DNA of 51,079 nucleotides, from positions 1 through 51,079 of the forward strand of contig JAJPJP010000324.1 of NCBI GenBank assembly GCA_021324175.1, read 5' to 3'. The stretch comes from Chitinophagia bacterium. Its GTDB lineage: Bacteria > Bacteroidota > Bacteroidia > Chitinophagales > Chitinophagaceae. Position numbers and translations under genes: made by a program. Below, in pieces: positions 28,413 through 38,425 of the stretch; within the stretch, counting starts at the first letter, position 1; each line of letters begins with the position of its first letter. The notes beneath the pieces are model-generated. The model was not told where the DNA came from, did not search any database, and saw only the letters and a list, made by a program, of their open reading frames with translations.

Positions 28413-29366
28413 ATGAAAAAAATTGGTGTTCTTTTTGGAAAAGAAAGAAGCTTTCCTATGGGCTTGGTTGAAAGGGTCAACAGTAAAAATGTTGAGGGTA
28501 TAGTTGCTGAGCCGGTTCGGATCGACAAAGTTGTGCAGGGCGAATCCAGCGGTTACGCCGTCATCATTGACAGAATCTCCCAGGACGTCCCTTTTTACCG
28601 CGCATTTTTAAAAAACGCGGCGCTCTGCGGGACAGCGGTGATCAATAATCCATTTTGGTGGAGCGCAGATGAAAAATTCTTTAACAACTGTCTGGCCACC
28701 AAGATTGGCGTTCCGGTACCCAAGACAGTCATTCTTCCTTCGAGGGACCATCCTGCAGACACAAGCGAGCAATCCTTTTCCAACCTGGCCTACCCATTGG
28801 ATTGGGAAGGAATTTTCCACTATGTCGGTTTCCCGGCATACATGAAACCATTCGCAGGAGGAGGCTGGAAAAATGTTTACAGACTTTCAAGTTCTGAGGA
28901 TTTTTTTCAAAAACACGGTGAGACGGGCGAACTCGTTATGTTGTTGCAAGAAGAAATCGTCTTTGATGAATATTACCGGTGCTACTGCATTGGAGGCAAA
29001 CACGTTCGGATTATGCCCTATGAACCGAGGAATCCTCATCACCTTCGTTACGCAAGCAACTTTAATCCATCGCTTGAAAAGCTGAAGCAGATGGAGCAAA
29101 TTGTTCTACGCATCAACCACTACCTGGGTTATGATTTCAATACCGTGGAACTCGCACTGAGGGACGGCGTGCCATATGCGATCGACTTTTGCAATCCGGC
29201 TCCCGATGCAGAGAAAACCAGCGTTGGAGAAGATAACTTCAGCTGGGTTATAGAAACCGCTGCAAACTATGCGATCGAAAGGGCTTTGGCGCACCAGGAG
29301 GGGATGGATAATCTAACCTGGGGAGAATATTTGAAAAGAAGCACGGCTAAAAAACATCTTGTGTAG
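28413..29366 (+). CDS. ATP-grasp ligase-like protein
   Basis: 317 residues with an ATP-grasp layout: a N-terminal pre-ATP domain, then FPAYMKPFAGGGWKNVYRLS (phosphate/adenine-binding loop with Lys, about 140-160), LLQEEIVFDEYYRCYCIGG (hinge Glu), and a metal-binding stretch FNTVELALRDGVPYAIDFCNPAPD ending in Asp and Asn. The protein should form an amide or peptide-like bond with an acyl phosphate intermediate; substrate unknown. It lies 52 bp before a GCS2-type ligase gene with which it is probably co-transcribed. The pairing of ATP-grasp and COOH-NH2 ligases is known from surveys of unexplored metabolite pathways. Confidence 0.75.
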   Translation: MKKIGVLFGKERSFPMGLVERVNSKNVEGIVAEPVRIDKVVQGESSGYAVIIDRISQDVPFYRAFLKNAALCGTAVINNPFWWSADEKFFNNCLATKIGVPVPKTVILPSRDHPADTSEQSFSNLAYPLDWEGIFHYVGFPAYMKPFAGGGWKNVYRLSSSEDFFQKHGETGELVMLLQEEIVFDEYYRCYCIGGKHVRIMPYEPRNPHHLRYASNFNPSLEKLKQMEQIVLRINHYLGYDFNTVELALRDGVPYAIDFCNPAPDAEKTSVGEDNFSWVIETAANYAIERALAHQEGMDNLTWGEYLKRSTAKKHLV

Positions 29367-29418
29367 AGCCCGATCGCTCGAAAAGACACGTATCAATCAT
29401 CGCAAATCAATAGTCAGG

Positions 29419-30531
29419 ATGGCAAATATCAGTTACAAGAATTTCACGATCGGAGTCGAAGAGGAATACATGGTACTCGATCCGGTTTCCAAAGAACTAA
29501 AGAGTCACGAACAGAAAATTGTCACTGAGGGGCAAAAAGTAATCAAGGACAAGGTTAAAGCAGAAATGCACCAGGCCGTGGTGGAAGTGGGGACGGAAAT
29601 CTGCCAGAATATTGACGAAGCATTTGACGATGTCGGGACGCTTCGAAAAACCATTTCGCAAATAGCTAACGACAACGGATTCTGGGTAGGCGCATCAGGC
29701 ACTCATCCCTTCAGCCATTGGGAAAATCAATTGATCACCGATCACGCCAGGTATAATGAGATTGTAAATGAACTCCAGGAAGCCGCGAGGAGCAATCTCA
29801 TTTTTGGCCTGCACGTGCATGTTGGCATGGAAAGCCGGGAGATGGCCAATCATATAGCGAATTCTACAAGGTATTTTCTGCCGCACATCTACGCGTTGAG
29901 CACAAATTCACCTTTTTGGGAGGGAAGACAAACCGGATACAAGTCTTTTCGGACCAAGGTCTTTGACAAGTTTCCGCGAACCGGCATACCTGAAAATTTT
30001 GAGAGCATCGAAGCTTACGAAAACTTCGTCAAGCTTCTTGTGAAAACAAACTGTATCGATAATGCAAAAAAAATTTGGTGGGATTTGCGCGTACACCCTT
30101 TTTTCAATACGGTAGAGTTCAGGATTTGTGATGTGCCAATGACCGTTCCGGAAACCATCTGTATTGCGGCATTGTTCCAGGCGATCTGCGCTAAGATTTA
30201 CAAGCTTCGATCTCAAAACCTGAATTTCATTCAATATTCACGGGCGCTTATTAATGAAAACAAATGGCGCGCGAGCAGATATGGCATAGATGGCAGACTC
30301 ATCGATTTTGGCAAAGAAGAGGAAGTCAATACCCGCGTATTAATTTACGAGCTGCTTGATTTTGTTGATGACGTGCTTGATCCGTTAAACAGCCGACATG
30401 CGGTAAACCATGTTGGACAGATTTTGGAGCATGGAACGGGCGCCGACCGTCAATTGAAAATATACACTGAATCCAACAATCTAACCAGCGTGGTGGAATA
30501 CATCCATTCCCAGTTTTTGCATGGTATCTGA
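29419..30531 (+). CDS. GCS2-family carboxylate-amine ligase (YbdK-like)
   Basis: 370 residues from ATG 29419 (20 in-frame upstream codons overlap the previous gene and look non-coding). Family signs: FTIGVEEEYMVLDPVS at the N-terminus, VGASGTHPFSHW (about 95), NLIFGLHVHVGM (about 135), WWDLRVHPFFNTVEFRICDVP (about 220-240, the glutamate/metal site). GCS2 enzymes join a carboxylate to an amine with ATP, often glutamate to cysteine, but YbdK members have wider or unknown substrates. Last gene of the ATP-grasp pair; it meets the leftward glycosyltransferase end to end with a 4-bp gap. Confidence 0.88.
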   Translation: MANISYKNFTIGVEEEYMVLDPVSKELKSHEQKIVTEGQKVIKDKVKAEMHQAVVEVGTEICQNIDEAFDDVGTLRKTISQIANDNGFWVGASGTHPFSHWENQLITDHARYNEIVNELQEAARSNLIFGLHVHVGMESREMANHIANSTRYFLPHIYALSTNSPFWEGRQTGYKSFRTKVFDKFPRTGIPENFESIEAYENFVKLLVKTNCIDNAKKIWWDLRVHPFFNTVEFRICDVPMTVPETICIAALFQAICAKIYKLRSQNLNFIQYSRALINENKWRASRYGIDGRLIDFGKEEEVNTRVLIYELLDFVDDVLDPLNSRHAVNHVGQILEHGTGADRQLKIYTESNNLTSVVEYIHSQFLHGI

Positions 30532-30535
30532 CTTT

Positions 30536-31744
30536 CTAGTCGCCCGTATGAACCTTGGGAGTATGCAGGAACTCCTTTCTTTTTACGTTCATCGAGAATA
30601 ATGCTTTTACCATTGAAAATACAAGCAATGGAACCTTGCACAGCGCTCTGAGCGTCGACCAGGCATAAAGGTTACGTGGAACAGAAATGATCATGACAAG
30701 CGAGAACATGACCGTGATGGCCAGCCAATAGACATAGCCAGGGAAAAGGATCTGAAAATTCAGCATCCATCCCACCAGAAAGATCAGGAATACCACGAAA
30801 TATGAAAGGAGAAAAAGTAGGCGCGGGGGAGCGAGGTTGAAAAACAGGCGATTCCAATAGTCCTTAGTTTTCGGAATATCGCCTTCTGATTTGTCAAAAA
30901 AGAGCCCTAGATGAATGATTTGGGATTCGAGCCAGCGGGTCCTCTGGCGTTGGTACACGGTCCGGCTCGAAACCTTCTCGTCCAGGACATAGGCATCGTC
31001 AATAAATTCGATGCAAATTTCGGATTTCATGATTTCAAAATCAACTTCCCGGTCGCATGCCGGATTGCCAAGGATACCGGGCTTATTATAAATTTGCTTT
31101 AGTTTTTTGAATTCAAACGCCATCCCCGATCCAATAGTACTCGACGAAAAGCCCAGCGCGCGCTGTCCCTTGCGAAAAATGTTATTATTGATTTCCTCGC
31201 TCATGGCATCCAGCACAGCGACGGCGTTGTTCTTGTTTTTGGCAACCCGGTGACACTGGACCGCGCGAAACCCGCGCTGAAATGCGGCATTCACTTTCTC
31301 AAGACAGCCTGGCATCATGATATTATCGCCGTCAAGAATAATGGCAATGTCATATTTTTCTTCCGGTATTTGATTCAGCAGTCGATTCAGCGACCTTGCC
31401 TTTGAGCTGATTTCAAAAGAAACTTCCAAAACATTGACCGGTATGGACCTGAGCGCTTCGATCGTTTCACGCGTGAGTTGATCAGCCGCTACAAAAACGT
31501 CAAAGCAATTTAACGGGTAGTCGTGTTCTTTCGCTTTTTGCGCTGTCATCCTTATCACGGCATCCTCCCGGAAACTGGGAATGAGCACGGCAATTCTTTT
31601 CTTTTCCGCTACTGCGAAATACTTGGCCGGACGATATAGCCTGCCTCCTATCGAAATGACGAAAAAATAAAGTGTATTTGACGACAAGTAGATGAAAAGG
31701 ACCAGGAATAAAATGTGCACAACAGTTAACACCATACCGGACAA
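30536..31744 (-). CDS. Membrane glycosyltransferase family 2 (processive type)
   Basis: 402 residues. N-terminal membrane segment (about 5-32), GT-A domain with IAVLIPSFRED, the metal site DGD (138-140) and the acceptor motif QRTRW (267-271), then three further membrane segments (about 300-385). This D, DxD, QxxRW set is typical of cellulose/hyaluronan-synthase-like enzymes that extend polymers at the inner membrane. It is the last gene of the leftward exopolysaccharide arm, 26 bp after another GT2 gene. Confidence 0.88.
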   Translation of the reverse strand: MSGMVLTVVHILFLVLFIYLSSNTLYFFVISIGGRLYRPAKYFAVAEKKRIAVLIPSFREDAVIRMTAQKAKEHDYPLNCFDVFVAADQLTRETIEALRSIPVNVLEVSFEISSKARSLNRLLNQIPEEKYDIAIILDGDNIMMPGCLEKVNAAFQRGFRAVQCHRVAKNKNNAVAVLDAMSEEINNNIFRKGQRALGFSSSTIGSGMAFEFKKLKQIYNKPGILGNPACDREVDFEIMKSEICIEFIDDAYVLDEKVSSRTVYQRQRTRWLESQIIHLGLFFDKSEGDIPKTKDYWNRLFFNLAPPRLLFLLSYFVVFLIFLVGWMLNFQILFPGYVYWLAITVMFSLVMIISVPRNLYAWSTLRALCKVPLLVFSMVKALFSMNVKRKEFLHTPKVHTGD

Positions 31745-31770: not shown

Positions 31771-32679
31771 TTAAACGATGGAAGCGCTTGTTGAGTACAT
31801 ATTCCAGAAAACGCCCTTGTAAAAATATTTCAACTGGGTCAATTCCCCTTTAGCGAGGAAAATAATGGTCGTTTTTGGGATAGTAAACAATATAAAGAAC
31901 GCCGTAAAAACGACCAGTTGAATGAGATTAGTATTTCTGCGCATGTACAATATTCGGTTCCGCGTATGATAAAAAACTTTCATTGGATTGTTCTTTCCAA
32001 CTGACATTGACTCCTTGTGCAATATCTTGGCATTGGCAACGTACCAGATTGAATATCCAGCCTTAATAATCCTGGCGGACCAGTCCCATTCCTCATAGTA
32101 TAGGAAGAACCGTTCGGGGAACATGCCTGTCTTGCCAATCACTTCGCGTTTTACCAACATGGCACAGCCATGCGCGGCGCTCGTGGTCCGCGACTGGTCA
32201 TATTGACCCCGGTCCCTTTCTCCTTCTCCTATGACATGGACGCGACCGGTAAAAGGGTTCATCGGGTTGAATCCTGCGTACTGGATCGTATCTGGCTCAG
32301 AAAAATAACAAATCTTGGGACAGGTTACACCAATTGACGGGTCGTCCAAGAAAGGCTTAAGGAGATTTCCGAGAAGATCTTCCGTAACCTCGGTGTCATT
32401 GTTAACGATAAAAAAAAATTCGCCCTTTGCCTGCTTCATCCCCCAGTTGTTTCCCGCCGCAAACCCAAGGTTTTTTTTGCTAAGCAAAAGACGGGTTTGA
32501 GGGTAATTACCGGCAGCGATTTCATCGGTAGGGTCGATGGCCGATGCCATGTCACAGACCAGGATCTCAAAATTACGATAGGTTAATTTCTTCGTAGAAT
32601 CCAGGAATTGACAGGTAGTCGTTGTCTGGTTATAATTCAGCGTAATGATGGAGATCAAAGGCTGCCAATCCTTTAGCAT
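31771..32679 (-). CDS. Glycosyltransferase family 2 (rhamnosyltransferase-like)
   Basis: 302 residues. GT-A fold: PLISIITLNYNQTTTT at the N-terminus, SKKNLGFAAGNNWGM (about 70), the metal motif NNDTEV (about 93-98), HGCAMLVKREV and YYEEWDWSARI (about 195-205). These are features of WbbL/rhamnosyltransferase-type enzymes. One hydrophobic segment near the C-terminus (about 255-280) suggests membrane association. It transfers one sugar of the exopolysaccharide repeat. The donor sugar cannot be fixed from sequence. Confidence 0.88.
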   Translation of the reverse strand: MLKDWQPLISIITLNYNQTTTTCQFLDSTKKLTYRNFEILVCDMASAIDPTDEIAAGNYPQTRLLLSKKNLGFAAGNNWGMKQAKGEFFFIVNNDTEVTEDLLGNLLKPFLDDPSIGVTCPKICYFSEPDTIQYAGFNPMNPFTGRVHVIGEGERDRGQYDQSRTTSAAHGCAMLVKREVIGKTGMFPERFFLYYEEWDWSARIIKAGYSIWYVANAKILHKESMSVGKNNPMKVFYHTRNRILYMRRNTNLIQLVVFTAFFILFTIPKTTIIFLAKGELTQLKYFYKGVFWNMYSTSASIV

Positions 32680-32728: not shown

Positions 32729-33886
32729 CTAGGCGTTTGTTTTCTGGATCAGCGCGGAAGGAGTCTGCGCCATAATCCAGAGATCGTATACAAAATTGCA
32801 GTTGTCCGCATAGTCAATGTCAAGTCCAATTCTTTCTTCAGCTGACATTTCTTCCCTACCCCTCTTTTTGATTTGCCACAGACCCGTGATGCCTGCAGGA
32901 GCCATGAAACGCTTTGCCCAATGATCCGTAGTCAGCGTCTCCGCCTCATAAAGTGGGAGCGGACGATTACCCACGATTGACATGTCGCCAAGCAGTACAT
33001 TGAGTAATTGCGGAAGTTCGTCAAGGCTTGTATTTCTCAAGAAAGAGCCTACGCGCGTAATGCGAGGGTCATTATTGATCTTGATAAAAACCGGCCCGCT
33101 TGCGGGGTTCGCATTGTAAAGATTCAGGTGAGAAAAATCGTTGATTTTCTCGTCGGCCCCGATACCCATTGTCCGAAACTTGTAAAAATCAAAAATTTTG
33201 TAGCCCTTACCCGCCCTCTTCGAAACATAAAAAACCGAGCCAGGCGACTCCAACTTGATCGCCAGGGCAATCAGGAGGAACAAGGGGCTTAAAAGGGTGA
33301 GGATGGTGAGAGAAATGATAATGTCAAAAGCCCTTTTCAAAAACATTTGTAAAGATGCCAGGTCTCTTTCCTGGTACACCGGGCCAACCGAAGCCTGCCT
33401 TGACTTAACCTTCTTGAGAAATTGTATCTTCCCGAAGACAAACTTTTCGTGAAAATCATTCAGAAACACAATTTCATCCAGAATTTTGTTTCTCCTGTGA
33501 TAATTAAGTTCTTTTTCAGACAAGCCGGATCCATCCAAAATAAAAGGAATTGAACTCAAAACGGGGTCATTATTCAGATAATGACGAAAATTTCGAATTT
33601 CACCGATGTCAAAACTTGCGTCGCAAAAAATGACCTCGGGAATTACATTATTGTCGTTTTTGAGGGAGCGGGTCAATTCGTTCTTGGTGCTTTCGAGCGA
33701 TTCAAAAGCATGGCCTCTTTTGAAAGAGCCCAACAATTTTTCTACGCTTTCAGTATTCTGACCGATATAGTAAAAACCGTTATTTCTGTAGACTTTGTTC
33801 TCTCTTACAGCATAATAAGACTTGATGCTGTAGTGAGCAAAAGTTTTGTTTTTAAAGGTTGCTTTGGGTAAAAATGTGAACTCCAT
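32729..33886 (-). CDS. Phosphoglycosyltransferase with degenerate receiver-like N-domain
   Basis: 385 residues in two parts. The C-terminal 205 residues are a bacterial sugar transferase (small-PGT fold): a membrane helix after [34 protein letters not shown], catalytic Asp289-Glu290 in [13 protein letters not shown], and GNRPLP. This enzyme loads the first sugar phosphate on undecaprenyl phosphate. The N-terminal 160 residues resemble a response-regulator receiver ([27 protein letters not shown]) but lack the conserved Lys and the acidic pair, so it cannot work as a normal phospho-acceptor. It lies 35 bp after a real receiver gene, which hints at a regulatory partnership. Confidence 0.85.
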
Positions 33887-33921
33887 ACAAAAGGTTTATA
33901 GTTTCATAATTACGGCATGCA

Positions 33922-34323
33922 CTAATTGGCATTAAAAAAATTCTTGTCGATAACCTGCTTTCTCACCAGGTTATTTACGACTGACAATAGATCAACTGGA
34001 TTAAAAGGCTTCAAAAAATATTTTGATACGCTGTGCTCCAGGCATTTAACCTGAGTTTCCTCGTTGTCAAGGCCGGAAAGCACCAGCAGCGGGATATGGC
34101 CATAAATACCACTTGATGAAAGTTGCTCAACAAGTTCCCAATTTTCCATATCCGGTAACTGCGGATCCGCGATTATTAAATCGGGTAAATTCTTTTTGGA
34201 GAGCCAATACATAGCAGTACAACCGTCAGGCATTGAAATGACCTGGTAGTCTTTACTGAGTATAGTCTGTAGCAAAAAGCGAATAGCTTTGCTGTCGTCA
34301 ATAACCAAAATTTGCTTTTTCAT
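33922..34323 (-). CDS. Stand-alone response-regulator receiver (CheY-like)
   Basis: 133 residues, receiver only, with no output domain. All catalytic residues are present: acidic pair in LVIDDSK (Asp9, Asp10), phospho-acceptor Asp53 (IIADPQLPDM), Ser83 (VLSGL) and Lys105 (FLKPFNP). It should be phosphorylated by a histidine kinase located elsewhere. It is the first gene of the leftward exopolysaccharide arm, upstream of the receiver-like sugar transferase, so it may regulate polymer initiation by protein contact; that is inference. Confidence 0.88.
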   Translation of the reverse strand: MKKQILVIDDSKAIRFLLQTILSKDYQVISMPDGCTAMYWLSKKNLPDLIIADPQLPDMENWELVEQLSSSGIYGHIPLLVLSGLDNEETQVKCLEHSVSKYFLKPFNPVDLLSVVNNLVRKQVIDKNFFNAN

Positions 34324-34672: not shown

Positions 34673-35866
34673 TTACTGAGCAAGGGCTTGCCGGGCCGCT
34701 TTTTCCCAAAGTACGGATTGCTGTTTCATCATGAATCGCTTAAATCCCAAAAATACCGCCACGTTCATGAACAGGAAATAATAAGGAATATATAATATTT
34801 TGAGCTTAATATTCCGGTTGGCGAAGAGCCAGCCGATGACCGCAGAAAGGTAGAACGCGGCCTGCAAAACCATCAGTAGGATAAAGAGAGGCGATGGCGA
34901 TAGGATTATTATCATGATATTAATGATCACTAAAAAGAGCAGGGCAACGGGACAAAGCGTCCATCGCAAGATCCTGTGAGAAATAAACTGGAAACTTAAC
35001 ACCGGATATTTGAAAACATTAAACAGGCTCCTGAGCATGCCCATCGCCTGGAACGCCCCGGCACAGATCCTGATTTTTCGCTTCTGCTCGTCTTTCATCG
35101 ATGCTGATGATGTCTCTATCGCGTATGCATTTGGTTCATAACGAATTACATATCCTTTCATACATATTTTCAGGGATTGGACAAAATCTTCAATTATGAC
35201 ATCCTTTTCCTCTTTTTCAAATAAATCGGTTCTGACGGAGAATAGTTCGCCGGCGGCACCAACCACCGAATAAAAAGTAGAATCAAGCTTTTTTAGAAAG
35301 GACTCATACCTCCAGTAGAGCCCCTCGCCTATTCCTGCGGCCGTGTCCGTTGCCTGTTTTAGGACTTTTTTTTCTCCTGCGACGCCCCCCACCAGAGGAT
35401 CGGCATAATGCAGCACGATCTCTGCGACGGCTTGAGCGTTAAGGAGAGTATTGGCATCTGAAAAGATGACATAAGGTGTCGAAACAAACTCCATAGCCCT
35501 GTTCATCGCAGCCAATTTCCCCCTGCGTTGCGGTTCGTGCAAAAGCAGAATTTCGGGGTACCTTCGGACAATTTCCGTCGTTTGGTCGCTGGACCCATCC
35601 GTTATAAAGATAATCTTGAGCAAGTCACGGGGATATGATAGTTCGAGGGTGTTTTGAATCTTAGTCTCAATAAATTCCTGCTCATTGTAGGCAGAAACAA
35701 CCAGGGAGACCGGAGGCTGAAACGTCTTGCCTTTATCCACTCGTTCAACACGGCGCCTGGTTAAATTCCTCAGCTTTATCAATAAGAAAATCAACATGCT
35801 ATAACCGGCGTAGCTGTATGCAACCAGGAAAAGACATAACCAGAAAATTATTTTTAACGCAGTCAT
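34673..35866 (-). CDS. Glycosyltransferase family 2 with membrane segments
   Basis: 397 residues from ATG 35866; the upstream 16 in-frame codons look non-coding. N-terminal membrane helix, then a GT-A domain: PVSLVVSAYNEQEF, FITDGSSDQTTEIV, HEPQRRGKLAAMNRA, metal motif SDANTLL (about 130), IEDFVQSL and a basic acceptor segment (KRKIRICAG), followed by three or more membrane helices. It resembles enzymes that build N-acetylglucosamine-type or other exopolysaccharides. Its start region is divergent from the Wzc-like gene (336 bp), and a leader gap of 349 bp separates it from the receiver operon. Confidence 0.85.
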   Translation of the reverse strand: MTALKIIFWLCLFLVAYSYAGYSMLIFLLIKLRNLTRRRVERVDKGKTFQPPVSLVVSAYNEQEFIETKIQNTLELSYPRDLLKIIFITDGSSDQTTEIVRRYPEILLLHEPQRRGKLAAMNRAMEFVSTPYVIFSDANTLLNAQAVAEIVLHYADPLVGGVAGEKKVLKQATDTAAGIGEGLYWRYESFLKKLDSTFYSVVGAAGELFSVRTDLFEKEEKDVIIEDFVQSLKICMKGYVIRYEPNAYAIETSSASMKDEQKRKIRICAGAFQAMGMLRSLFNVFKYPVLSFQFISHRILRWTLCPVALLFLVIINIMIIILSPSPLFILLMVLQAAFYLSAVIGWLFANRNIKLKILYIPYYFLFMNVAVFLGFKRFMMKQQSVLWEKAARQALAQ

Positions 35867-36202
35867 TTTCAATCGATAAAACCAGATATCCCATAAACGT
35901 CCGCCCGGTAACAATAGTATCCTTTTTCGCGGGAAATTTCCAGGTCACCCTGGCGATTTTCTAAATCTTGGGTATTGAACAGCTTCCCGGGATTAAGAAA
36001 AAATAGTCCTATTTTTGACCACACCGTCAAAACCGCGAAAACAGGCCACGAACCGTCAAATTCATCTCGTTATTATGTCTTTTATCAGGAACTGCCGTAC
36101 GTGCCTGGATATAAAACATTTTTTCGGTTGCCACATATTCGGCAATCGCAAATCAGCGTTATACTCATTTAGTTAGCAAAATTGTCAATTTAAAATAGCC
36201 TC
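35867..36202. other. Divergent promoter region of the exopolysaccharide locus
   Basis: 336 bp between two divergent genes. The only strong element is a rightward TATTTTTG box at 36010-36017. If used, the Wzc-like mRNA would have a leader of about 180 nt, which could carry control elements, but no known riboswitch was recognised. Confidence 0.4.
36010..36017 (+). promoter_or_regulatory. Promoter -7 box TATTTTTG for the rightward exopolysaccharide arm
   Basis: Full TAnnTTTG match. No convincing -33 TTG at standard spacing, so moderate support. Confidence 0.35.
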
Positions 36203-38425
36203 ATGGATCTGAATTACCTTTTAAACGCCCTTTTTAAAAAAAAATGGATCATTATTTTTGGTACGCTGGTCGCACTAGCAGCTTCACTTGCCTTCACCTT
36301 TTTCATGAAAAAAAGCTACGTCTCGGACGCACAGTATTCGACGGGCCTCACGCAAACAAGTAAGATTTCATTGCAGACCAGCGAAGTTTTTGATATCAAC
36401 CAGATTGATTTGCGGTTCAACAACGTGGTCGAGACTTTTCAATCTCCAACAGTTGAAGGAATGCTCTCCTATGAACTGCTGCTTCATGATATCGAAGCTT
36501 CCCATCCGTTTCGCCAGTTGACCGCCAGTCAGAAAAAAGATACTGCTTATACACTCGCGGATTTCACAAAAGCGAAAGAGATTCTTCATAAGAAGCTAAA
36601 TTCACTCACGTTACTCAGCAGTTATGATTTTGATGAACGCAGGGTTTGGGACCTGTTGCTGTTATACGAGTATGATGATTATAATCTGTCCAAGAAGCTG
36701 ACCATTGAACGTATTAAGAGTTCAGACTTTCTGCTCGTTGAATTTTCTTCTGAGAATCCGGAATTGAGCGCTTTCGTGGTCAACACGATCGGCGAAAAGT
36801 TCCTGGAATTCTATAACTCGCTGCGATCGGGGGTGACTCACAACGCCCTAGTGCGCGTAGACAGCCTGGCTAAGGCGCAACAGAAAAAAGTCGATAGCCT
36901 CCAGGCCCGTCTTGAGAATTTCCGCGCTAAAAACGGCACTTCAAAGACAGGGGACGTCCAGGCGCAGGCATTGCAAAGCGCATCGGAAGCCAACGCCCAG
37001 TACACAAACGAACAGACGAATTTAAACAAGTTAATTGCCCAACTTGACGCTGTCAACAATCAGCTGGCAACGCTCAATAGTGGGACGACGACCTCATCTA
37101 CGAGCCAGCAAACGAACAATAATGCCGAGATCCTCCGACTAAAAAAAGAAAACGAAAACCTGACGAGCCAGATGGCCGCCAAAGGAGGCAATGATCCCGA
37201 TATCCAGGGTAAGATAACAGCCAACATCAACCGGATTAATGAGCTCTATCAGACTGTCGGCACCACTAATCCAGTGGCCAGTGCAGAACGGATCCAGACA
37301 ACGCGGGAAACGCTTATCATCAAAAAATCCGACTTGCAGGCGGAAATCGAAGCTTCCAGGCAAAACTTGAGAATTTACCTGGATAATGCGGACAAATACA
37401 GAGGTATTGCTAATTCGGGAGGTGGTAGCGAAGTCATCGCAAATGCGTATGAAAATGACCTGAAGTCGGCACAGGATGAGTTGACAAAATACAGAAACAG
37501 CCTGTTTACCTCGCAAGATATCGCGGTCAATCCGGATTTCAATTTCCGCCAGACGCTGATTGGACAGCCTCCAATAAAAGCCATGCCGCTCCACCGGACC
37601 ATTATCGTGGGCGTATCGGCTATATCCATGTTCATTATCGTCTGCCTGATTATCATCGTCCTGGAATTCCTTGATCCATCGCTTCGGAGCCCGTCAATTT
37701 TCCAGCGCGAGACCAAATTAAAGCTATTGACAGTCGTCAACAAAATGGATCTTCTCAAAAAATCCATTAAAGAAAGTTTCGATTTATCCAGCGGTGAATC
37801 ACTAAGCTCCTCCAGCAAAACATTTGTTGAGAGTTTCAGGAAATTGAGGTTCGAACTCGAGAACAGCGGCAAAAAAATCATCTTATTGACCAGCTTGAAA
37901 TCGGACGAAGGCAAGAGCACCCTCCTGGAAGCGCTTGCATACACGTTCAGCATGACCAAGAAAAAAATACTCCTTATTGACTCGAATTTTTCAAACAACA
38001 CACTGACAAGGAAATTTTCAGCGAAACCTACTCTCGAAAATTTCAGCCTTGGTGCACAGGATAACGCGACGGATAAAATTTGGGGCATCACAACGCTGAC
38101 TGATATTGTTAATGTCGACGTCATCGGCTGCAATGAAGGCAACTACACACCTGCTGAGATTTTGCCAAAAAATAACCTGCTGTTCAACCTAAACAAGATC
38201 GGCCAGCACTATGATTTTATTTTCATCGAAGGCGCGTCTTTGGACGATCATGCGGACAGTAAGGAACTGTCAAAGTATGCTGATGGCATCGTCGTAGTTT
38301 ATTCAGCTAAAAATTCACTTGGGGAAATTGACAAAGAGTCTTTACAATTTTTGAAATCATCGACACCCAGTAAATTCCTGGGAGCCATTTTAAACAGCGT
38401 CGAAAACGATTACCTTGATGTCTAG
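36203..38425 (+). CDS. Wzc-like polysaccharide co-polymerase with degenerate BY-kinase domain
   Basis: 740 residues. N-terminal Wzz-type membrane helix (about 15-35), a large periplasmic region with long coiled coils (about 215-450, rich in Gln, Asn and Ala), a second membrane helix (about 465-490) and a cytoplasmic ATPase domain. The Walker A reads SLKSDEGKST (Lys571), where the usual form is PGEGKS/T; the A' Asp593 remains in LLIDSNF, but the Walker B position has Glu676 (DFIFIEG) instead of Asp. The C-terminal tyrosine cluster is absent (one Tyr). It probably sets chain length as a scaffold, with weak or no tyrosine-kinase activity. First gene of the rightward arm. Confidence 0.87.
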   Translation: MDLNYLLNALFKKKWIIIFGTLVALAASLAFTFFMKKSYVSDAQYSTGLTQTSKISLQTSEVFDINQIDLRFNNVVETFQSPTVEGMLSYELLLHDIEASHPFRQLTASQKKDTAYTLADFTKAKEILHKKLNSLTLLSSYDFDERRVWDLLLLYEYDDYNLSKKLTIERIKSSDFLLVEFSSENPELSAFVVNTIGEKFLEFYNSLRSGVTHNALVRVDSLAKAQQKKVDSLQARLENFRAKNGTSKTGDVQAQALQSASEANAQYTNEQTNLNKLIAQLDAVNNQLATLNSGTTTSSTSQQTNNNAEILRLKKENENLTSQMAAKGGNDPDIQGKITANINRINELYQTVGTTNPVASAERIQTTRETLIIKKSDLQAEIEASRQNLRIYLDNADKYRGIANSGGGSEVIANAYENDLKSAQDELTKYRNSLFTSQDIAVNPDFNFRQTLIGQPPIKAMPLHRTIIVGVSAISMFIIVCLIIIVLEFLDPSLRSPSIFQRETKLKLLTVVNKMDLLKKSIKESFDLSSGESLSSSSKTFVESFRKLRFELENSGKKIILLTSLKSDEGKSTLLEALAYTFSMTKKKILLIDSNFSNNTLTRKFSAKPTLENFSLGAQDNATDKIWGITTLTDIVNVDVIGCNEGNYTPAEILPKNNLLFNLNKIGQHYDFIFIEGASLDDHADSKELSKYADGIVVVYSAKNSLGEIDKESLQFLKSSTPSKFLGAILNSVENDYLDV

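Follow-up and report, generated by a model that had tools for sequence, protein, structure and literature searches.

A free receiver paired with a pseudo-receiver-bearing phosphoglycosyl transferase across Bacteroidota: a candidate switch on exopolysaccharide initiation

The window analyzed here, a 51,079-nucleotide stretch of DNA from a Chitinophagia bacterium, encodes a phosphoglycosyl transferase (PGT) whose N-terminal domain (N-domain) is a degenerate receiver, and the gene immediately upstream encodes a complete receiver. This pair of genes recurs across Bacteroidota and is therefore probably an on/off control that acts directly on the PGT. Docking of the free receiver on the fused pseudo-receiver, to switch exopolysaccharide synthesis post-translationally at its first step, is a reading that we consider reasonably probable. 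A fuller version, to which we give an even chance, is a split PleD-like switch. Here, a receiver would have been duplicated in tandem, the fused copy would have lost its chemistry and become the docking half, and the free, phosphorylated copy would open or close exopolysaccharide initiation. The system would be general to Bacteroidota and later phosphorylation-independent in some Chitinophagaceae.

Control at the PGT step is a standing question because PGTs draw on a lipid carrier that is scarce and shared with other cell-surface pathways, as set out in passages of PMC12802240. How bacterial pseudo-receivers are activated is still a mystery according to a 2025 review, which raises receiver/pseudo-receiver heterodimers as a possibility (passages of PMC12632262). 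The pair described below is a conserved two-gene system in named Bacteroidota strains, with both likely partners identified and an enzyme that can be assayed as its output.

The window locus and its free receiver

An earlier note on this DNA had the coordinates and contents of the receiver and PGT reading frames right. They lie among the following features:

33922..34323 (-): receiver gene, single-domain response regulator, 133 aa (Pfam PF00072, Response_reg, 4.9e-18)
32729..33886 (-): PGT with N-terminal pseudo-receiver, 385 aa (Pfam PF02397, 4.8e-59)
33389..33781 (-): pseudo-receiver core, PGT residues 36-166 (AlphaFold2 model, VIA and profile matches)
32747..33337 (-): PGT catalytic domain, residues 184-380 (Pfam Bac_transf, PF02397)
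34673..35914 (-): family 2 glycosyltransferase upstream of the receiver gene (Pfam PF00535, 7.1e-19)
31771..32679 (-): family 2 glycosyltransferase downstream of the PGT (Pfam PF00535, 6.3e-20)
30536..31744 (-): family 2 glycosyltransferase, final gene of the same-strand run (Pfam PF13641, 7.4e-22)
36203..38425 (+): Wzz/Wzc-like chain-length protein with a C-terminal P-loop domain (Pfam Wzz, 5.5e-8, above cut-off)

The minus-strand order is thus glycosyltransferase, receiver, PGT, glycosyltransferase, glycosyltransferase, with 35 nt between the receiver and PGT reading frames. The Wzc-like gene adjoins on the plus strand and, by its sequence, marks a polysaccharide locus; its product also matches NCBIfam eps_fam (3.7e-20), below that family's cut-off. 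A promoter and terminator scan returned counts no different from those of shuffled sequence. Two overlapping open reading frames at 28413-30531 (+) converge on the final glycosyltransferase gene and end four bases from it. By sequence type, their products look like an ATP-grasp ligase and an enzyme of the glutamate-cysteine-ligase type.

The active site of the receiver is complete (D9, D10, D53, S83, and K105), with an aromatic residue (Tyr) at K-3 and Pro at D+4. PF00072 spans residues 5-116 and no output domain follows, so the protein is a single-domain response regulator; the earlier note's description of a complete receiver without an output domain holds. No close paralog was found in its own genome (88% complete), where the next receiver scores 42.1 bits against 288.8. 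The window receiver is not a member of the NCBIfam EpsW family NF041866 (46 bits against a cut-off of 200).

The catalytic domain

The Bac_transf match of the window PGT follows the start of the single hydrophobic stretch, at residues 181-214. Hydrophobic windows of 19 residues (mean 1.6) start at residues 181-196, and none was found that starts before residue 181. The catalytic residues are D188/P201, K236, R284, D289-E290, and R308, which are invariant in 59 PGTs; the motif roles come from passages of PMC12802240, and the equivalent residues were assigned by reading the sequence. With Bac_transf, a DX12P re-entrant helix, the Asp-Glu dyad, and the substrate Lys/Arg, the enzyme is a monotopic PGT. 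It lacks the four-helix transmembrane bundle and the PF13727 domain of the large monoPGT type (WbaP/WcaJ/EpsZ), and it falls outside the NCBIfam EpsZ family NF041877 (161.1 bits against a cut-off of 800). The full-length model (mean pLDDT 65.9, pTM 0.40) was used for domain arrangement only as to the helix that follows the N-domain.

Many orthologs, including L100-L105 and L175, have a catalytic domain interrupted by a Cys-rich insert (a C..C pattern followed by two further Cys), which is perhaps a metal site. The insert is present in 6 of 11 PGTs from named genomes and 21 of 40 from the broad Bacteroidota set described below, and in none of the 56 Chitinophagaceae pairs, the window included.

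The N-domain is a degenerate receiver

The first ~166 residues of the window PGT end in a degenerate receiver, an assignment that comes from family profiles and from the predicted structure. Pfam detects no family above cut-off in this part of the protein, and the Response_reg cut-off is not reached. Compared directly, the window N-domain and window receiver give a BLASTP E value of 0.088, which does not make homology convincing from two sequences alone. At the family level, hhalign aligns a profile of 57 N-domains to a profile of 56 paired receivers with 95.4% probability (E 1.9e-8). A 12-sequence N-domain profile matches 148 PDB sequences below 0.01, with receivers down to 3.8e-12. The 60 of these that were listed are response regulators, receivers, CheY, and two-component or cyclase proteins, and PleD is among the best of them. 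A profile built from free receivers only matches 72 of 109 N-domains (E up to 0.01), and 108 of 109 match at least one of three profiles, two of which were built partly from the same sequences; L204 matches none. Response_reg itself weakly matches two of 57 Chitinophagaceae N-domains scanned singly. Among ten ortholog PGTs, four N-domains pass its gathering score of 30.2 bits (L103, 32.1; L104, 30.9; L176, 32.1; L184, 57.7).

The AlphaFold2 model of the N-domain (mean pLDDT 79.5; block means 83-95 across residues 31-160) has five alternating strands and helices, (βα)5. In the 50 Foldseek matches listed, the best PDB entries are mostly response regulators, with a few others such as arginine decarboxylase. 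The highest VIA Z is 13.1, for the PhoB receiver 2jb9 (residues 36-161; 115 residues, 2.4 A). By sequence and by model, then, the N-domain is a receiver. Among its five helices, mean conservation peaks in a5 (1.16 vs 0.71-0.97), the helix that runs on to the catalytic domain.

Aligned to receivers, the five active-site positions of the window N-domain are G42, Q43, D89, G119, and L142. Only the Asp at the acceptor position, D89, is kept; the acidic pair, Ser/Thr, and Lys are gone. The earlier note had the domain resembling a receiver without the catalytic residues: its receiver derivation and degeneracy are borne out by the profiles and model, but the loss is not total. A pseudo-receiver is defined as a (beta-alpha)5 receiver domain lacking at least one of DD, D, T, and K (passages of PMC12632262), and the window N-domain, modeled as (βα)5 and lacking DD, T, and K, is one. 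None of 109 N-domains keeps the acidic pair, Asp, and Lys together. In Chitinophagaceae, the acceptor position is Asp in 30 of 59 and Glu in 26 of 59.

Two related genomes hold a far less decayed N-domain (L184 and L190), which keeps Lys and Ser and has Glu in place of the acceptor Asp. In one of them, G746, the holder of L184, the N-domain matches 23 other stretches, and the adjacent receiver is the best of these (60.8 bits; next, 32.0). Because of this result, which covers that one genome, the N-domain probably arose by tandem duplication of the neighboring receiver and fusion to the PGT.

Conservation of the receiver/PGT pair

Similarity to the N-domain or PGT was the criterion for selecting relatives; whether a receiver was present played no part. 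The search behind the Chitinophagaceae sample gave 78 matches, spread over 76 of 294 genomes: 60 regions were examined, 17 matches were left out, and one is the window. PGTs were held by 58 of these regions, and the other two (G045 and G098) held other receivers. Across a phylum sample, PGT subfamily members below 1e-100 occur in 45 of 395 genomes. For the broad set, 43 of 48 such matches were taken, since four (G000, G029, G035, and G021) were already sampled and G008 was left out. Nine further N-domain PGTs (L207-L215) were added from another match list, on which most other matches were frames of receiver or hybrid-kinase size. The controls were 78 PGT genes: 70 from 69 loci of different kinds, and a further 8 from Bacteroidota. 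Five with under 500 nt upstream were dropped, leaving 73.

A single-domain receiver gene lies immediately upstream, on the same strand, of 105 of 109 sampled Bacteroidota N-domain PGTs, and of none of the 73 control genes with at least 500 nt upstream (Fisher p 1.3e-46, ignoring relatedness). Chance adjacency is rejected on this comparison. The gaps range from about -32 to 243 nt, and some of the genes overlap. Within Chitinophagaceae, 56 of 59 PGTs (window included) have the adjacent receiver, at gaps of -32 to 117 nt, and the window's gene order is kept in 20 of 58 loci. The three exceptions are L048, which is near a contig end, and L040 and L041, which are second copies. Neither of these second copies, which belong to genomes G282 and G242, has its own receiver close by; they may share that of the first PGT copy. 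In named genomes, all 11 N-domain PGTs (Pinibacter, another Chitinophagaceae, Dawidia, Saprospiraceae, Pedobacter, two Sediminibacterium, Hymenobacter, two Flavobacterium, and Rufibacter) are paired, ten of them not already counted. The broad Bacteroidota set has 39 of 40 paired, the exception being L175. The adjacency count of 109 includes L175 and not L095, which shares a contig with L062 and is counted once there, while the 109 of the N-domain residue and profile counts includes L095 and not L175.

The paired free receivers keep the acceptor Asp in 98 of 107, the Lys in 101 of 107, and all five residues in 79 of 107. These counts take the L062/L095 gene twice and include the receiver of L198, a PGT without an N-domain that also stays in the ND+REC group of the tree described below. 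By set, all five residues are intact in 34 of 56 Chitinophagaceae, 8 of 11 named, and 37 of 40 broad-set receivers. The 22 of 56 Chitinophagaceae receivers that are not intact (L056, L057, L062, L064, L068, L074, L081, L082, L088, and others) lack the Lys, the Asp, or part of the acidic pair. Since paired receivers in parts of Chitinophagaceae have lost active-site residues, decay there affects the free and the fused partner alike. Part of the window's family may have given up phosphorylation, because only those 34 receivers keep all five residues; the residues of the window receiver itself give no sign of such loss. Column coupling between receivers and N-domains (106 pairs) is dominated by clade differences, the top pairs being a few clade-marking columns, and is therefore uninformative on an interface; its top-ten mean of 8.06 only just exceeds the maximum of 7.42 in 100 shuffles.

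A proposed mechanism and its alternatives

In the proposed mechanism, a histidine kinase would phosphorylate the free receiver at Asp53, and the phosphorylated receiver would dock on the fused pseudo-receiver of the PGT. Lacking most of the phosphorylation chemistry, the pseudo-receiver would serve as the fixed half of a receiver-receiver pair. Docking would then shift the position or dimer state of the catalytic domain through the last helix of the pseudo-receiver, and sugar-phosphate transfer to the lipid carrier would be turned up (more likely) or down. We infer phosphorylation, docking, allostery, and the sign of the switch, and the upward direction is a guess by analogy with EpsW.

This switch interpretation, which the earlier note had put forward, is partly supported. 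Its strict docking form is weakened because PGTs of the subfamily without an N-domain ("bare" PGTs) still adjoin a receiver in 4 of 12 cases (L198, L216, L217, and L220), and because 22 of 56 Chitinophagaceae paired receivers have lost part of the active site. Exclusive docking is weakened by a genome in which the pseudo-receiver is retained but no clear ortholog of the receiver was found. In that genome (L175; one contig, 99% complete), the N-domain PGT has no adjacent receiver, and the search for an ortholog gave at best 72.6 bits, within a 1462-aa frame, and 64.9 bits for a short frame. Directly upstream of this PGT, where relatives carry the receiver, are two histidine kinases and a 377-aa frame (L175:6268-10359).

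The bare PGTs bear most directly on an alternative that we hold to be unlikely, in which the direct target of the receiver is the catalytic domain or the membrane face of the PGT, along the lines proposed for EpsW and EpsZ, and the pseudo-receiver does another job, such as dimerizing the enzyme. Besides the four bare PGTs with an adjacent receiver, five have one a single gene away, so the receiver's partner need not be a pseudo-receiver; that receiver looks partly decayed in L218, L224, and L225. A quick tree was built from 101 catalytic domains, those of some of the N-domain PGTs, of the bare PGTs, and of 21 others. A branch with support 100 has the 21 others all on the same side, and the bare PGTs lie inside the N-domain clade on weakly supported branches, as direct action would allow; this placement fits either loss of the N-domain from the bare PGTs or its absence from the outset. 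However, for 3 of the 12 bare PGTs the 4 kb upstream contain no receiver on the same strand, and an adjacent receiver is missing from 8 of 12 bare vs 4 of 109 N-domain PGTs. The G746 N-domain, whose nearest receiver is its own neighbor, also suits a receiver-receiver pair. In two bare loci, a ~675-aa protein with DUF4842 and DUF4114 lies between receiver and PGT (L218:5800-7821 and L222:2587-4620), and L221, L224, and L225 have frames of that size in the same place.

Somewhat less likely again is a permanent structural role for the receiver as a subunit of the PGT, with phosphorylation unimportant. Pairs do persist where the receiver no longer has an acceptor Asp (9 of 107) or a Lys (6 of 107), or where its acidic pair is incomplete, and gene overlap in some loci suggests coupled translation. 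Against a purely structural role, the five residues are kept in 79 of 107 paired receivers and 37 of 40 in the broad set, the window receiver retains its aromatic residue at K-3, and hybrid kinases with Hpt domains are adjacent in some lineages. In Hymenobacter and Rufibacter, such kinases, with HisKA, HATPase, receiver, and Hpt domains, are encoded upstream of the pair. Adjacent upstream hybrid kinases were identified by Pfam in L102, L105, and L216 and by seed match in L217 and L220. A scan of the 58 Chitinophagaceae loci with three kinase seeds revealed no kinase gene in the vicinity of the pair.

In other systems, single-domain receivers take part in relays, and the locus encodes several other enzymes. 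The receiver could therefore serve another target (Wzc, another glycosyltransferase, or a transcription partner) and be merely operonic, with the pseudo-receiver a relic membrane or dimer module. We regard this as improbable, given that the receiver stays beside the PGT in 105 of 109 loci while other neighbors vary, and that the control PGT loci lack a receiver there.

Lastly, identity of the N-domain with CoA_binding_3 of ordinary large PGTs, its receiver likeness being only superficial, is scarcely credible and is rejected: both are alpha/beta domains N-terminal to the same catalytic domain, but PF13727 matches neither the window PGT (E up to 1) nor any of 57 N-domains (E up to 0.1), whereas it is matched by two other PGTs encoded in this genome (36.1 and 34.7 bits). 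In addition, profiles, Pfam, and the model all give receiver matches, and no hydrophobic window starts before residue 181. No CoA_binding_3 protein was noticed among the 50 structural matches listed, which is no proof of absence. The earlier note had proposed modeling as a CoA-binding-like fold as a check on its receiver reading; the best model matches are receivers, and the reading stands.

Comparison with known systems

Docking on the pseudo-receiver, the reading we prefer, has relatives among described systems. In Myxococcus xanthus, phosphorylated EpsW is reported to interact with and stimulate the PGT EpsZ, and a 2:2 complex has been modeled (mBio 2025; passages of PMC12802240). As in the window, a single-domain response regulator of an exopolysaccharide system accompanies the initiating PGT; phosphorylated EpsW is reported to lie close to that PGT and to stimulate it, and for the window pair the comparison covers gene adjacency and residues. 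EpsZ belongs to the large monoPGTs and has a bundle of four transmembrane helices plus a DUF, whereas the window PGT has no such bundle and carries a pseudo-receiver. The kinase of EpsW/EpsZ is DifE (same passages), while the three seeds revealed none near the Chitinophagaceae pairs, and the window proteins score far below the curated family cut-offs.

Large monoPGTs such as WbaP share the catalytic domain and have a proposed N-terminal regulatory domain (passages of PMC10942596). That DUF (PF13727), reported there to respond to uridine nucleotides, has no match in the window PGT. Small monoPGTs fused to receiver domains, the same type of fusion as in the window, are mentioned in PMC12802240 with reference to O'Toole 2021. 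The passages concerned do not mention a degenerate state, a partner receiver gene, or Bacteroidota-wide pairing, and O'Toole 2021 may hold more. The words "Bacteroid" and "pseudo-receiver" do not occur in a text search of PMC12802240, and an open-access literature search found no title or abstract describing the Bacteroidota receiver/PGT pair.

A parallel for control through a pseudo-receiver is PleD of Caulobacter, which consists of a receiver, a pseudo-receiver, and a diguanylate cyclase (passages of PMC12632262). In PleD, the phosphorylated true receiver controls the enzyme through the pseudo-receiver, and the same is proposed for the window pair. However, PleD is one polypeptide with a cyclase output, whereas the window system has a true receiver encoded by a gene of its own and a PGT as its enzyme. 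The principle of a receiver switching a PGT is already published for EpsW/EpsZ (2025; passages of PMC12802240); having the pseudo-receiver in cis, and the pairing throughout Bacteroidota, seem to be a new variation on it.
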